A stretch of 64,000 nucleotides of DNA from an uncultured Pelagibacteraceae bacterium (GTDB lineage: Bacteria > Pseudomonadota > Alphaproteobacteria > Pelagibacterales > AG-422-B15), in contig CACNCV010000001.1 in the NCBI GenBank assembly GCA_902619105.1, positions 146,706-210,705 on the forward strand. The letters are read 5' to 3'. Under the pieces are notes generated by a model. The model was not told the origin of the DNA, made no database searches, and saw nothing but the letters and a program-made list of their open reading frames with translations. Below are positions 44,593-49,250 of the stretch, one piece after another (within the stretch, counting starts at the first letter, position 1; each line of letters begins with the position of its first letter). The position numbers and the translations under genes were made by a program.

Positions 44593-45701
44593 TGAGTTCT
44601 CATTTCGTAGATGTGCTTGTAATTGGTGGAGGGGTTATTGGATTAGCCATAGCTAAAAGTTTTGCCTCCAAAGGTCGTGAAGTCATTGTATTGGAGAAAG
44701 AAAATACTTTTGGTTCTGTTACCAGTTCAAGAAACAGCGGTGTCATTCATGCAGGTGTTTATTATGACAAGGATTCTATGAAGGCTAAATTTTGTGCTGA
44801 TGGAAATCGTAGAATGTATGAATATTGTAAAAAATTTAATGTACCTCACATTAATACAGGAAAGTTCATTGTCGCAACATCTTCTAATGAAATTCCTAAA
44901 CTCGAGGAAATTTTCTCCAAAGCAGAATATAATGGCGTTGAAGGAATAGAAAGAGTAACAGGAAATTACGTTACCAGCAAAGAGCCGTTAGTCGAATGTA
45001 TTGAGGCATTATTCGTGCCATCATCAGGCATTGTTGATCAAAATTCTCTCATGAGGTCTTATCTTGGTGAGCTGGAGGAAAGCTCCGGCAATATTGTTTT
45101 TAATTCACGATTCTTACGTTCAGAAATTCATGGTGAGAAATATTATTCTACTGTTCTGAGTGATGGAGAAGAAATAATTATAGAGTCGTCAGTTATAATT
45201 AATGCTGCTGGTCTAAACGCTGAAAACATTGCAAATAATATTCTACCCTTAAATAAAAAATATATTCCCAAAACATATTTCGCCAAAGGTAATTATTTCG
45301 AAACAGGAAAAGACCTAAAGATTCGACATCTAATTTACCCAATACCAAATGATGCAAGTCTTGGTTTACATTTGGGATTAGATTTAGGAATGCAAGTTAG
45401 ATTTGGACCTGATGTTGAATGGGTTGATGAAATTGATTATGAAGTAAAAAAAGATAGACAGGTTTTATTTCATAATGATGTCATAAAATATATTCCCTCA
45501 ATTAAAATTGAAGATCTTAAAGCTGGATATTCAGGCGTAAGACCAAAACTTAAGAATAAAGGCGAGGGTAAAAGTGACTTTTCAATTCAAGGAGAAGAGA
45601 CACATGGTATTAAGAATCTTGTTAACTTATTTGGCATGGAGTCGCCTGGGTTGACTTCTTCACTTGTTATTGGAGAGTACGTCACCAATATGGTAAATTA
45701 A
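44592..45701 (+). CDS. FAD-dependent oxidoreductase, L-2-hydroxyglutarate oxidase-like
   Basis: The 369-residue DAO-family protein has the FAD motif VLVIGGGVIGLAIA, SSRNSGVIHAGVYYDKDSMKA and the C-terminal GMESPGLTSSLVIGEYV. These are features of L-2-hydroxyglutarate dehydrogenase/oxidase (LhgO-like), which returns this metabolic by-product to 2-oxoglutarate. A related 2-hydroxyacid or glycerol-3-phosphate-like substrate is possible. Stops overlap convergent rpoH in TTAA. Confidence 0.82.
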   Translation: MSSHFVDVLVIGGGVIGLAIAKSFASKGREVIVLEKENTFGSVTSSRNSGVIHAGVYYDKDSMKAKFCADGNRRMYEYCKKFNVPHINTGKFIVATSSNEIPKLEEIFSKAEYNGVEGIERVTGNYVTSKEPLVECIEALFVPSSGIVDQNSLMRSYLGELEESSGNIVFNSRFLRSEIHGEKYYSTVLSDGEEIIIESSVIINAAGLNAENIANNILPLNKKYIPKTYFAKGNYFETGKDLKIRHLIYPIPNDASLGLHLGLDLGMQVRFGPDVEWVDEIDYEVKKDRQVLFHNDVIKYIPSIKIEDLKAGYSGVRPKLKNKGEGKSDFSIQGEETHGIKNLVNLFGMESPGLTSSLVIGEYVTNMVN

Positions 45702-46561
45702 AAAAGGAACTCTTTCTTTTGTGAATTTGATATATACGATTTCATCTTCATCATAGCACCTTTTTCAATCTGTCTTACACGTTCTTTGGAAATTTTTAAT
45801 TCCTTGCCTAGTATATCAAGAGTTTTAACTTCCTCTGAAAGGTGTCTATCCTTAATTATTTTTACTTCTCTTTCATCAAGTATCTCTAAAGTTTGCTTTA
45901 TTAAGTCTTTTTTAAAATTTACTTGATCCTTTTCAAATACCTTATCATCAGGTCTTGCATCTTCATCCTCAATGAGTTCCATAAACTCACTTTCACTTTC
46001 GTCATTAATTTTATGATTGAGGGAACTATCATTTTGGCTAATTCTGCTGTCCATTTTTATGACATCAGAAGTTGAAATATTTAAATCATTAGCAATGCCC
46101 TGTGCGGTCTGAAAATCAATTGACCCATGTTCCGTTTGATGAATTTTCTGCTTTAACTTTCTGAGACTAAAAAATAAGCTTTTTTGTTTTGAAGTTGTTG
46201 CGATCCTCACTAATGACCAATTTTTTAGAACAAAGTCTTGAATTGACGCTCTGATCCACCATCCAGCATAAGTTGAGAATCTAACTTCTTTATCCAATTC
46301 AAATCTTTCTGCAGCTTTCATAAGACCTATATTTCCCTCTTGAATAAGGTCGCTCAAATTAAGACCATAGTTCTTATACTTAACAGCGAAAGCTATAACC
46401 AATCTGATGTGAGATTGGGTTAACTCGTGCAAAGCTTTTTCATCTTTGTTTTTAATCCATTTTTTTGCCAAAACCTTTTCATGATTTTCTTCAAGCAAAG
46501 GAATCGACATAGCTTTCTTAACAAAAGATTTCATTTCATTTGTATCATCAAAACTTGACAT
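45698..46561 (-). CDS. rpoH: Heat-shock sigma factor RpoH (sigma32)
   Basis: The protein has sigma70 region 2 (DLIQEGNIGLMKAAERFE, FSTYAGWWIRASIQDF), the RpoH box QKSLFFSLRKLKQKI directly after it, and a region 4 helix-turn-helix (LKISKERVRQIEKGAM). The RpoH box separates it from RpoD. I use ATG 46561 (MSSFDD, 287 residues); an ATG at 46582 would add seven residues. RpoH directs chaperone and protease genes. Its stop overlaps the convergent oxidoreductase stop by four bases. Confidence 0.92.
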   Translation of the reverse strand: MSSFDDTNEMKSFVKKAMSIPLLEENHEKVLAKKWIKNKDEKALHELTQSHIRLVIAFAVKYKNYGLNLSDLIQEGNIGLMKAAERFELDKEVRFSTYAGWWIRASIQDFVLKNWSLVRIATTSKQKSLFFSLRKLKQKIHQTEHGSIDFQTAQGIANDLNISTSDVIKMDSRISQNDSSLNHKINDESESEFMELIEDEDARPDDKVFEKDQVNFKKDLIKQTLEILDEREVKIIKDRHLSEEVKTLDILGKELKISKERVRQIEKGAMMKMKSYISNSQKKEFLF

Positions 46562-46648
46562 GCATGGAAAATACAAATTCAATGTAAAAAGACAATTTGA
46601 ATCTTTATTTTTGAGGGTATAAAAACTGCCAATGTGGCTTAATTTAAT

Positions 46649-46995: not shown

Positions 46996-47072
46996 TGGCG
47001 CGCTCGAGATGATTCGAACATCCGACCCCAGGATTAGGAATCCTGTGCTCTATCCTACTGAGCTACGAGCGC
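46996..47072 (-). tRNA. tRNA-Arg (anticodon CCU)
   Basis: On the minus strand a 77-nt cloverleaf has acceptor GCGCTCG/CGAGCGC, T8, D-arm AGCTC with the usual GTAGG loop elements, anticodon stem CAGGA/TCCTG with loop TTCCTAA (anticodon CCT), T-arm with GTTCGAAT, and encoded CCA after discriminator G. It reads AGG codons. Confidence 0.96.
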
Positions 47073-47358
47073 ATAATTAAAGATTTTTTAAAAAAAAAAA
47101 TAATTTTTATTTTATTTTAATTTATAATAATAAAAAAAAATAAATTTTTGTTGCTATCAAAAAATCTAATAACTATAAGTATTTAAATACATTTACTAAC
47201 AATTTAAAATACATAGAAAAAAAAATCTAAAATTCAAAAAATTCAAAAAACAGCGAAAAATTGACAGTTTTTCATAAAAGTTTAATCATTGTAATAGAAC
47301 GAATCAATTTTGATTCATCTACTAACCTCTAACTAAACCCAAACGGGGGGAGATAATT
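47073..47358 (+). other. AT-rich non-coding spacer before the H1-like gene
   Basis: This 286-bp stretch, the longest non-coding gap in the window, has no plausible gene. Bases 47083-47150 are almost pure A/T runs, then several A-tracts follow. The last ~20 bp hold the GGGGGGAG ribosome-binding site of the H1-like gene. It also contains whatever promoter drives tRNA-Arg on the other strand. Long A-tracts favour bent DNA, but no specific site is recognised. Confidence 0.5.
47261..47288 (+). promoter_or_regulatory. Possible promoter of the H1-like gene
   Basis: A perfect TTGACA (47261-47266) is followed after 16 nt by TAATCA (47283-47288), a poor -10. It is the best candidate in the spacer, and would give a leader of about 60 nt. 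Weakly supported. Confidence 0.35.
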
Positions 47359-47616
47359 ATGGAGGAACTAAAAGTGATCTTTGCGAAAGCAAGGAAAAAA
47401 GCTAAGAAAAAAGCAGCGCCTAAGAAAAAACGTAAAGCTGCTAAAAGGAAGCCAGCTAAGAAAAAAGCTGCTCCTAAAAAGAAAAAGCGTAAAGCAGCTA
47501 AAAGGAAGACAGCTAAGAAAAAAGCTGCTCCTAAAAAGAAAAAAAGGAAAGCCGCTAAGAAAAAAGCCGCTCCTAAAAAGAAAAAGAAAGCTGCTAGAAG
47601 AAAAAAAAGAAGATAA
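47359..47616 (+). CDS. Histone H1-like Lys/Ala/Pro repeat protein
   Basis: The 85-residue protein has 41 Lys, 10 Arg, 21 Ala and 5 Pro. After a short non-repetitive head (MEELKVIFAKAR) it is built from four copies of KKKAAPKKK-RKAAKRK at spacings of 18, 19 and 14 residues. This is the composition of eukaryotic H1 tails and of bacterial H1-like proteins (chlamydial HC2 type, AlgP), which bind DNA without a fixed fold. A strong GGGGGAG site precedes the ATG and two tandem terminators follow. DNA binding is inferred; RNA or polyphosphate binding is possible. Confidence 0.75.
   Translation: MEELKVIFAKARKKAKKKAAPKKKRKAAKRKPAKKKAAPKKKKRKAAKRKTAKKKAAPKKKKRKAAKKKAAPKKKKKAARRKKRR
47374..47610 (+). 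repeat. In-frame tandem repeat of the H1-like gene
   Basis: The DNA repeats a unit of 42-57 bp built from GCTAAGAAAAAAGC and CCTAAAAAGAAAAAGCG segments, with near-identical copies at about 47413-47466, 47467-47523, 47524-47565 and 47566-47610. Nucleotide identity is high between copies 2 and 3, so copy number may vary by slippage or recombination. Confidence 0.75.
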
Positions 47617-47647: not shown

Positions 47648-47680
47648 CGCCCTTAGTTCAATAAACTAGGGGCGTTTTTT
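47648..47680 (+). terminator. Intrinsic terminator 2, overlapping the carD end
   Basis: CGCCCTTAGTT (47648-47658) pairs over 11 bp with AACTAGGGGCG (47664-47674) around CAATA, followed by TTTTTT. The left arm includes the complement of the carD stop. On the minus strand the hairpin lacks a following T-run, so it serves mainly the plus strand. Confidence 0.82.
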
Positions 47681-48465
47681 AATTTATCTCTTCCAAGAAT
47701 TTTATCGACTTTTTTTATTGCGTTTTCCTCAGTGATTTTAAGTCCTGCCATTACTTCTCTTAAAAATCGATCATAAGACAATTCGAAAAGCTGTCGTTCA
47801 CTATATGATTGCTCTATTTGATTATTTGCTCTGTTAAGGTCTCTAACAACTTCAGCAATCTGCTCAATATCACCTGAGTTAATTTTAAGGTCATATTCCT
47901 GTGCCCTTCTACTCCACATTGTTCTCTTAATTTTTGGTTTTTGAGAAAGGATTTTTAATACTGTCTGAATTTTAGATGGTTTTGATACTTTTCTTAAATT
48001 AAGAGACTTAGCCTTTTCAACCGGAACTCTCAAGATTAACTTATCCCGTACAAACTCTATCACGTACATTTCTAGTTTTTGTCCAACTACCTCTCTTTTT
48101 TCAATATCCACAACTTGGCCAACACCGTGTGTTGGATAAACAACATGATCCTTTGTATTAAAAATTTTTTTAACTTTTTTTTCTTTAATGGTCTTTATTT
48201 CTAAAAACTTTTTAACTTTTTTCGCTTGATAGTGAGCGGGATTAATAATTCGATTATTAACTTTTTTCTCAGATTGTGGAGGAAGTTTAGGCTCTACAAA
48301 TTTCTTTATTTCTTTTGTCTTTTTAACAACTTTTTTTACTTGTTTCTTTTTTGGCTTCTTTTTTACTGAGGTTTTCTTTTTAATAACTTTTGTTTTTTTC
48401 TTTACAGTTTTCTTTTTCAGAATTTTCTTTTTTTCAATTTTACTGACTTTTTTCTTTTTTTTCAT
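47653..48465 (-). CDS. carD: CarD-family transcription regulator with polylysine head
   Basis: Residues 103-265 are a full CarD/CdnL protein: the RNA-polymerase-interacting Tudor-like part (DHVVYPTHGVGQVVDIEKRE, shown as YPTHGVGQVVDI) and the helical DNA-contacting part (LREVMAGLKITEENAI). CarD stabilises open promoter complexes. Residues 1-60 are an added low-complexity head with 33 Lys, and 82-100 are also basic. Alphaproteobacterial CarD is usually ~165-170 residues. No other in-frame ATG gives a clean CarD start, and the frame starts 8 bp after fdxA, so the head is probably real. Confidence 0.9.
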   Translation of the reverse strand: MKKKKKVSKIEKKKILKKKTVKKKTKVIKKKTSVKKKPKKKQVKKVVKKTKEIKKFVEPKLPPQSEKKVNNRIINPAHYQAKKVKKFLEIKTIKEKKVKKIFNTKDHVVYPTHGVGQVVDIEKREVVGQKLEMYVIEFVRDKLILRVPVEKAKSLNLRKVSKPSKIQTVLKILSQKPKIKRTMWSRRAQEYDLKINSGDIEQIAEVVRDLNRANNQIEQSYSERQLFELSYDRFLREVMAGLKITEENAIKKVDKILGRDKLKNAPSLLN

Positions 48466-48473
48466 AGAATTAC

Positions 48474-48806
48474 CTAACCTCCAGATTTTTCGGAAAAATA
48501 TTTATCATATTTATTTTCTTCACTCTCATACATTTTTGCATCAGTTGGTGAGTCTTTCTTCAAAGTAATGTTTGGCCATATTTCTGAATACTTTTGATTC
48601 ACTTCTAACCATTTTTCATCTTTATCATCTGTATCAGAAATGATTGCATCAACAGGACACTCAGGTTCACACACACCACAATCTATGCACTCATCAGGAT
48701 TTATTACTAACATATTTTCACCTTCGTAGAAACAATCAACCGGACATACCTCCACACAATCAGTATATTTGCATTTTATGCATTTTTCATTAACTAGGTA
48801 GGTCAT
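48474..48806 (-). CDS. fdxA: Ferredoxin, 7Fe-type (FdxA)
   Basis: The 110-residue protein has [18 protein letters not shown] and [15 protein letters not shown], giving the [3Fe-4S]/[4Fe-4S] pattern of FdxA, with the extended C terminus [14 protein letters not shown]. It is a low-potential electron carrier. The fdxA-carD pair is conserved in Alphaproteobacteria. It lies 6 bp after the TerB-like gene. Confidence 0.93.
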
Positions 48807-48812
48807 TTTAAA

Positions 48813-49250
48813 CTATTGTGAGAGTTTTTTCTTTATTTCACCAACTTTAAAATCATCGAGATATAGAAGACCAGATATTTTACGTACTAAAGCATTTTCA
48901 TAATCGTCAATTCTGCCGTCTGCAATTACAATCTTCCATATCATTTCAATTATCATTATTTTTTCATCGTCAGTTAGTAAACTATTAATTTTTGATGTAA
49001 ATTGCTGAATATCATTCGCGTTATCAACAAGTTCATAAGAAGCATTAAAAAGTTTATTTAATTTATCGTTATCTAAATTATAAAAATTACCAAGCAATTT
49101 TAACATTTCATCTTTTTCAATTTCATCAAATTCACCATCGTGCAGGGCAGTAGTAATCATCAACGATGCAACAGCTAATTGTGATGCCTCAAATTCTTCT
49201 TCTTTGACCTCGTTATTATCTGATAATAGCTTTTTGAATTTTTCTAACAT
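48813..49250 (-). CDS. TerB-like protein
   Basis: The 145-residue all-helical protein has two related acidic motifs, ALHDGEFDEIEKDEM (about 37-51) and IVIADGRIDDYENALV (about 117-132), which fit the metal-binding TerB fold. The family name comes from tellurite-resistance loci, but single chromosomal copies in Alphaproteobacteria are not linked to tellurite. It heads the terB-fdxA-carD run. Confidence 0.82.
   Translation of the reverse strand: MLEKFKKLLSDNNEVKEEEFEASQLAVASLMITTALHDGEFDEIEKDEMLKLLGNFYNLDNDKLNKLFNASYELVDNANDIQQFTSKINSLLTDDEKIMIIEMIWKIVIADGRIDDYENALVRKISGLLYLDDFKVGEIKKKLSQ

Follow-up and report, generated by a model that had tools for sequence, protein, structure and literature searches.

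The carD gene of the window, by which we mean the whole stretch of 64,000 nucleotides of an uncultured Pelagibacteraceae bacterium that was analysed, encodes a CarD/CdnL protein in which an N-terminal polycationic and probably disordered arm precedes an otherwise standard core. Our preferred reading, to which we assign a probability of about 0.6, is that this arm would bind DNA and act as the HMGA/H1-like tail does at the C terminus of Myxococcus CarD. The lysine content of the arm appears to be maintained by selection, the block that joins it to the core matches the RNAP-binding domain in its degree of conservation, and comparable heads recur across almost all of the Pelagibacterales sampled and in part of the other Alphaproteobacteria.

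The carD gene and its translation start

The gene and the segments of its product are as follows.

47653..48465 (-): carD/cdnL, whole open reading frame, ATG start, 270 aa
48286..48465 (-): fluid lysine-rich arm, residues 1-60, recognized by its composition
48163..48285 (-): strict basic block, residues 61-101, adjoining the RNAP-binding domain
47986..48162 (-): CarD_TRCF_RID, RNAP beta-binding domain, residues 102-160 (PF02559, 6e-16)
47707..47961 (-): CarD_C domain, residues 169-253, with W184 and R186/R187 (PF21095, 8.8e-21), the Trp being aligned with that of solved CarDs
48474..48806 (-): fdxA, encoding a ferredoxin, immediately upstream of carD (NF045490)
48478..48482 (-): GGAGG, from its sequence a possible Shine-Dalgarno motif of carD, within the 3' end of fdxA

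Both domains score well above their Pfam cut-offs (58.7 bits against 23 for PF02559 and 74.1 bits against 23.1 for PF21095), and together with the conserved Trp and basic-patch residues they identify the protein as a member of the CarD_CdnL_TRCF family. In fact, W184, R186 and R187 (WSRR) are invariant across 31 aligned sequences, that of the window included, and a wedge role is ascribed to the conserved Trp of CarD in excerpts of PMC4593161. About 100 extra residues precede the conserved domains, and 17 residues remain C-terminal to the CarD_C match. In the genome to which the window belongs (90% complete), a single CarD is seen, besides a 789-codon frame that has the RID domain and is presumably Mfd.

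A late translation start was rejected, since codons 1 and 119 have no ATG, GTG or TTG between them and the conserved VVYPTHG would be lost if translation began at GTG119. The head does contain the rare start codons ATT, ATA and CTG; the ATG start of carD is accordingly a predicted one, and from sequence alone initiation at one of these codons may be possible. An SD-like motif at most 20 nt from an in-frame ATG was found in just 37 of 87 carD genes, a scarcity which may reflect a tight coupling to fdxA. Among the loci with enough sequence, fdxA precedes carD in all 86 from Pelagibacterales and in 86 of the 104 others.

Composition of the head and selection acting on it

The 33 lysines of residues 1-60 are accompanied by no Arg, 3 Glu, no Ala and 2 Pro, the main residues of the arm being K, V, I and T, and a further 12 lysines lie in residues 61-101; the 60-residue head and the second basic block that the preliminary description of this DNA had pointed out are both borne out by these counts. 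Residues 1-101 carry a net charge of +40, versus +10 for the rest of the protein. Among the 70 accepted open reading frames of the window, only CarD and the H1-like ORF that converges on it reach 33 lysines per 60-residue stretch, the next-highest count being 17 and the median 9.

Selection was assessed by the Nei-Gojobori method over all pairs of 29 genes of the genus, that of the window included and one gene with a frame-shifted arm (L030) excluded. Synonymous sites differ at a rate of 0.49-0.55, and dN/dS amounts to 0.22 for residues 1-60, 0.036 for residues 61-101, 0.036 for residues 102-160 and 0.027 for residues 161-270. The head is under protein-level selection, and the conservation of block 61-101 equals that of the RNAP-binding domain. 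In the arm columns where the window has Lys, this residue occupies 823 of 957 cells (32 gaps) in the 29 sequences, and in the remaining arm columns identity to the window is 59%. Since lysine is kept while the other columns drift, the arm seems to be selected mainly for charge and the following 40 residues for sequence. Just before the domain, the two families of the order show mutually related signatures, LEIKTIKEKKVKKIF.TKD in f1 and PEIKK.KKQ.TEKR.YK.KD in f2.

We considered whether the head might be a low-complexity sequence under weak constraint that arose as a by-product of AT-richness in the genome (the window has 32% GC) and is tolerated as harmless. Its low-complexity, A-rich character would suit such an origin, as would the length of the arm, which differs by whole codons and often as short repeat units. 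The dN/dS values of arm and block argue against it, and so do base shuffles of the head (n=20,000), which yield a mean of 19 lysines and reach 32 in none of the 20,000 cases, only 75 being free of stops. In view of these results and of the distribution described below, we regard this explanation as unlikely.

Conservation of block 61-101 at the level of the RNAP-binding domain, together with its related signature in both families, may also be read to mean that the arm serves mainly for protein contacts, with charge-based docking on an acidic partner (e.g. an RNAP or sigma surface) and the block as the real interface. We consider this very improbable; AlphaFold gave no confident structure for the block. 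Two models, both of low confidence (pTM 0.31 and 0.33), did not show the block folded onto the core. The first of these models has a mean pLDDT of 61.5, with residues 26-98 below 50 and a helix drawn at residues 9-30 at a pLDDT of about 50, and the second, from which the arm was removed, is no better. Given this low overall confidence and the helix, the models suggest disorder of the arm only weakly.

Distribution of basic heads

Of 154 Pelagibacterales genomes (at least 90% complete), 141 gave a CarD_C match. The window itself belongs to this order of SAR11 relatives, its closest named relatives being Pelagibacteraceae/Pelagibacterales genomes and MAGs (38 loci). When a basic head is defined by a minimum of 40 residues and 15% Lys, one is present at 87 of the 90 Pelagibacterales loci read, with a median length of 100 and a median Lys fraction of 0.40; three of the 87 are counted by their domain-nearest part only, L030 being frame-shifted and L031 and L036 lying at contig ends. 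As for the three exceptions, L141 and L142 are contig ends and L135 looks frame-shifted. By the same measure the head is shorter, of 54-58 residues, in several genera. The lack of alternative start codons and this retention in 87 of 90 loci together make a late start or an artefact unlikely, and a sequencing artefact as the source of the head was discarded because the head recurs in many independent genomes; neither of the two doubts that the preliminary description had left standing is borne out. In L030 and L135 the head seems to be spread over two reading frames in A-rich runs, likely through assembly errors or, possibly, polymerase slippage.

In the wider class, CarD_C was matched in 261 of 289 genomes, four of these being Pelagibacterales. 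Our class sample is the best-scoring 150 of the 261 matching genomes and is non-random. Within it, 109 were examined as sequence, comprising the 30 best-scoring loci and others picked by hand, many for their long open frames; the 41 left out have open frames of at most 205 aa in 39 cases and longer ones in 2. At least 35 of the 150 CarDs of other Alphaproteobacteria bear long Lys-rich heads, mostly K/A/P-rich and H1-like, of which 32 were recognized by the rule and L210, L223 and L231 were added by eye, L210 without a visible start codon. The comparison of alphaproteobacterial CarD N termini that had been proposed at the outset thus reveals recurrent heads, and the idea of a head unique to the window was abandoned. 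Long heads, of up to about 260 residues, were observed in L172, L174, L183-L190, L216-L228 and others.

The loci of these head-bearing CarDs span GC values of 0.30 to 0.71, a range that AT-richness fails to account for; AT composition as their sole cause was rejected on this range and on the base shuffles. Heads at a GC of up to 0.71 and retention throughout nearly all Pelagibacterales loci further oppose a tolerated by-product, with which the 74 of 109 examined CarDs of other Alphaproteobacteria that were scored headless would agree. The head is clearly patchy across the class judging by the sequences sampled, and the count of gains and losses is weak, as the core tree requires 20 changes of head state, whereas strongly supported branches force only 4.

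An AT-hook-like GRP core with basic flanks is absent from the window CarD. Such motifs (e.g. KRGRPKNPE) occur in 8 of the 88 Pelagibacterales heads scanned, where letter shuffles expect 0.03 and give a maximum of 2 in 2000 shuffles. They belong to L032, L042 and L140 of one genus and L062, L149, L156, L159 and L164 of another, and being limited to two genera they may represent only two origins.

Comparison with described CarD proteins

Among the closest known parallels are the CarD of Myxococcus xanthus, with its HMGA-like tail, and that of Anaeromyxobacter, with an H1-like K/A/P tail, which like the window CarD join an RNAP-binding core to a basic segment. In the excerpts of PMC4374960, PMC9304148 and PMC8156234 this myxobacterial segment is described as disordered and DNA-binding, with AT-hooks in some proteins and the H1-like tail in others. 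It is C-terminal there and N-terminal in the window CarD. Moreover, the Myxococcus protein contains an acidic segment, has CarG as its partner and is found alongside a separate CdnL, whereas the genome of the window shows one CarD. According to excerpts of PMC4374960, the HMGA domain was confined, in the genome data of 2015, to CarD-containing myxobacteria, and CarDNt, from which this domain is removed, retains low activity.

Alphaproteobacterial CdnL, as in Caulobacter and Rhodobacter, is of the same family and shares the conserved Trp. The window CarD exceeds it by about 100 residues, CdnL being taken here from its description in excerpts of PMC4374960, where it is a standalone protein, 160-200 residues long, that lacks an HMGA-like domain. 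With 270 residues and a basic extension of about 100, the window protein falls outside this strict definition, and it likewise falls outside that of a myxobacterial CarD, which calls for a C-terminal HMGA- or H1-like domain. Being longer than CdnL and having its basic segment at the opposite end from myxobacterial CarD, it matches neither described architecture.

Residues 101-237 of the window protein align with residues 2-138 of 4kbm_B, the Mycobacterium tuberculosis CarD, and the Trp wedge is found in the Mycobacterium and Thermus proteins solved with RNAP as in the window CarD. The matched full-length chains of these two genera are without the N-terminal extension that the window CarD has, the SUMO tag of 9e7v aside. 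The size of about 165 residues that the preliminary description had given as normal for CarD holds for the solved full-length chains (158-170 residues, except for the SUMO-tagged form) and for a good number of homologs; in Alphaproteobacteria, however, long basic heads are common.

A Lys-rich, low-complexity basic segment is also found in the AlgP-type histone H1 C-terminal-like proteins. Their segment is of K/A/P type, a composition that many other alphaproteobacterial heads display and from which the window arm departs, as it lacks Ala and has Pro at only 2 of 60 positions. Among the matches listed in the open-licence literature, titles and abstract openings report neither a lysine-rich N-terminal CarD head nor the Pelagibacterales micro-ORF described below.

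Putative mode of action of the arm

The core is of the standard kind that binds RNAP and the promoter fork, and by homology it would dock on the beta lobe of RNAP and stabilise the open complex. We hypothesize that the arm binds the DNA backbone without sequence specificity and that in some relatives it would grip AT-rich minor grooves through the AT-hook-like motifs. CarD and RNAP would in this way become more concentrated locally on the nucleoid, and DNA would be held near the promoter. The strict block 61-101, the conservation of which is observed, would probably contact promoter DNA or RNAP in a defined manner. Such a role accords with excerpts of PMC4374960 and PMC8156234, in which basic disordered tails give CarD-type proteins DNA affinity. 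The arm would be unneeded for weak DNA binding as such, given that Caulobacter CdnL binds DNA nonspecifically via basic residues of its C-terminal domain (excerpt of PMC5324124).

In favour of a DNA-binding arm, the sequences offer a complete core, a lysine-biased selection on the arm, relatives with AT-hook-like motifs and heads throughout the class; against it stand the headless majority of the other CarDs examined and the restriction of the AT-hook-like motifs to two genera and their absence from the window protein. An arm of this kind could bind any polyanion, and it may instead be a general polyanion hook with RNA, the ribosome or polyphosphate as main partner, which would tie CarD activity to the starvation state or to nascent rRNA. 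The fluid sequence of the arm, in which mainly lysine is kept, would fit such a hook, and in Pseudomonas the spacing of polyphosphate granules requires the H1-like KPAA-repeat tail of AlgP, as stated in the excerpt of PMC9239181. Nevertheless, CarD acts on promoter DNA and the AT-hook-like motifs point to DNA, and we consider the polyanion hook a possible but doubtful alternative to the DNA-binding arm.

A basic HMGA/H1-like segment thus stands on the opposite side of the core from the myxobacterial one, both in almost all Pelagibacterales sampled and in 35 or more of the 150 CarDs of other Alphaproteobacteria. If the arm does bind DNA, a global transcription activator of these bacteria would also be a nucleoid-binding protein, and studies of headless forms would miss part of the action of CarD.

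The convergent H1-like micro-ORF and the gene neighbourhood

The following features lie downstream of carD.

47359..47616 (+): convergent H1-like micro-ORF, K/R-rich, 85 aa
47619..47675 (no strand): two terminator-like hairpins, by consensus match, between and at the 3' ends of carD and the micro-ORF
47301..47316 (+): palindrome GAATCAATTTTGATTC in the micro-ORF leader, by sequence, with two GANTC sites
47261..47289 (+): promoter-like TTGACA-17-AATCAT ahead of the micro-ORF, a consensus match only, with 16 such sites in the region against 11.6 expected

The convergence of carD on an H1-like gene, as previously noted, is confirmed, the two frames being 36 nt apart. A Lys/Arg-rich micro-ORF of 19-85 codons converging on carD, with an ATG or GTG start, is present in 84 of the 84 Pelagibacterales loci for which 300 nt or more could be read downstream. 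The same rule finds one in 1 of 106 loci of other Alphaproteobacteria (L105), an 18-codon Arg/Cys-containing GTG frame unlike the family. With ATG starts only, the counts are 83 of 84, one of them a wrong ORF, and 0 of 106. The product is of the type MAKRRKKAKKK..RRRR in family f2 and MEELKVIFAKA.. in family f1, and that of the window has no match in Pfam or NCBIfam. An SD-like motif accompanies each of the 84 starts selected, although starts of this kind were given preference; when the first ATG is taken, 80 of 83 have one, versus 9% at random places. Within six length classes pN/pS is 0.06-0.40. From its sequence the product looks like a protamine/H1-like nucleoid peptide.

The Pelagibacterales loci are related by descent, so these counts and those of the leader are not independent. 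The 120 nt that precede the micro-ORF contain one or more GANTC sites in 84 of 84 loci, versus 22% of random windows, and at least two in 72 of 84; a GAATC...GATTC palindrome is found upstream in 63 of 84, and GAATCA in 83 of 84 leaders. In the window the palindrome sits just past the promoter-like TTGACA element, and in the examples folded the leader hairpin is built from different arms in different genera. GANTC is the site of CcrM, and GcrA is the partner of CcrM. A search of 24 genomes detected GcrA in 18, that of the window among them, and the latter has one N6/N4 DNA methylase (PF01555), not identified as CcrM.

The lysine-rich arm resembles a histone tail and a small histone-like gene lies next to carD, which hints that the activation of genes and the packing of DNA may be connected. 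Tentatively, and with the odds well against it, one may envisage a chromatin-like two-gene module in which the HMGA/H1-like-armed CarD and the convergent protamine-like micro-protein, with its GANTC (CcrM-type) leader beside a promoter-like element, couple promoter opening to nucleoid compaction and possibly to the cell cycle via GcrA and a GANTC methylase. If true, this coupling would concern an abundant marine bacterial group, and the conserved neighbour provides a concrete genetic handle. The stricter conservation of block 61-101, the recurrence of heads in the class and the conservation of the H1-like ORF as a neighbour in the sampled order had all been overlooked in the preliminary description, and the last of these makes the nucleoid link suggested there more interesting than one window implied.

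Two genes of the HU family are present in the genome of the window. A TerB-family protein gene (48813-49250, -) lies upstream of fdxA-carD, and an RpoH-like sigma-32 gene (45698-46582, -) and a tRNA-Arg(cct) (46996-47072, -) are located near the carD locus.
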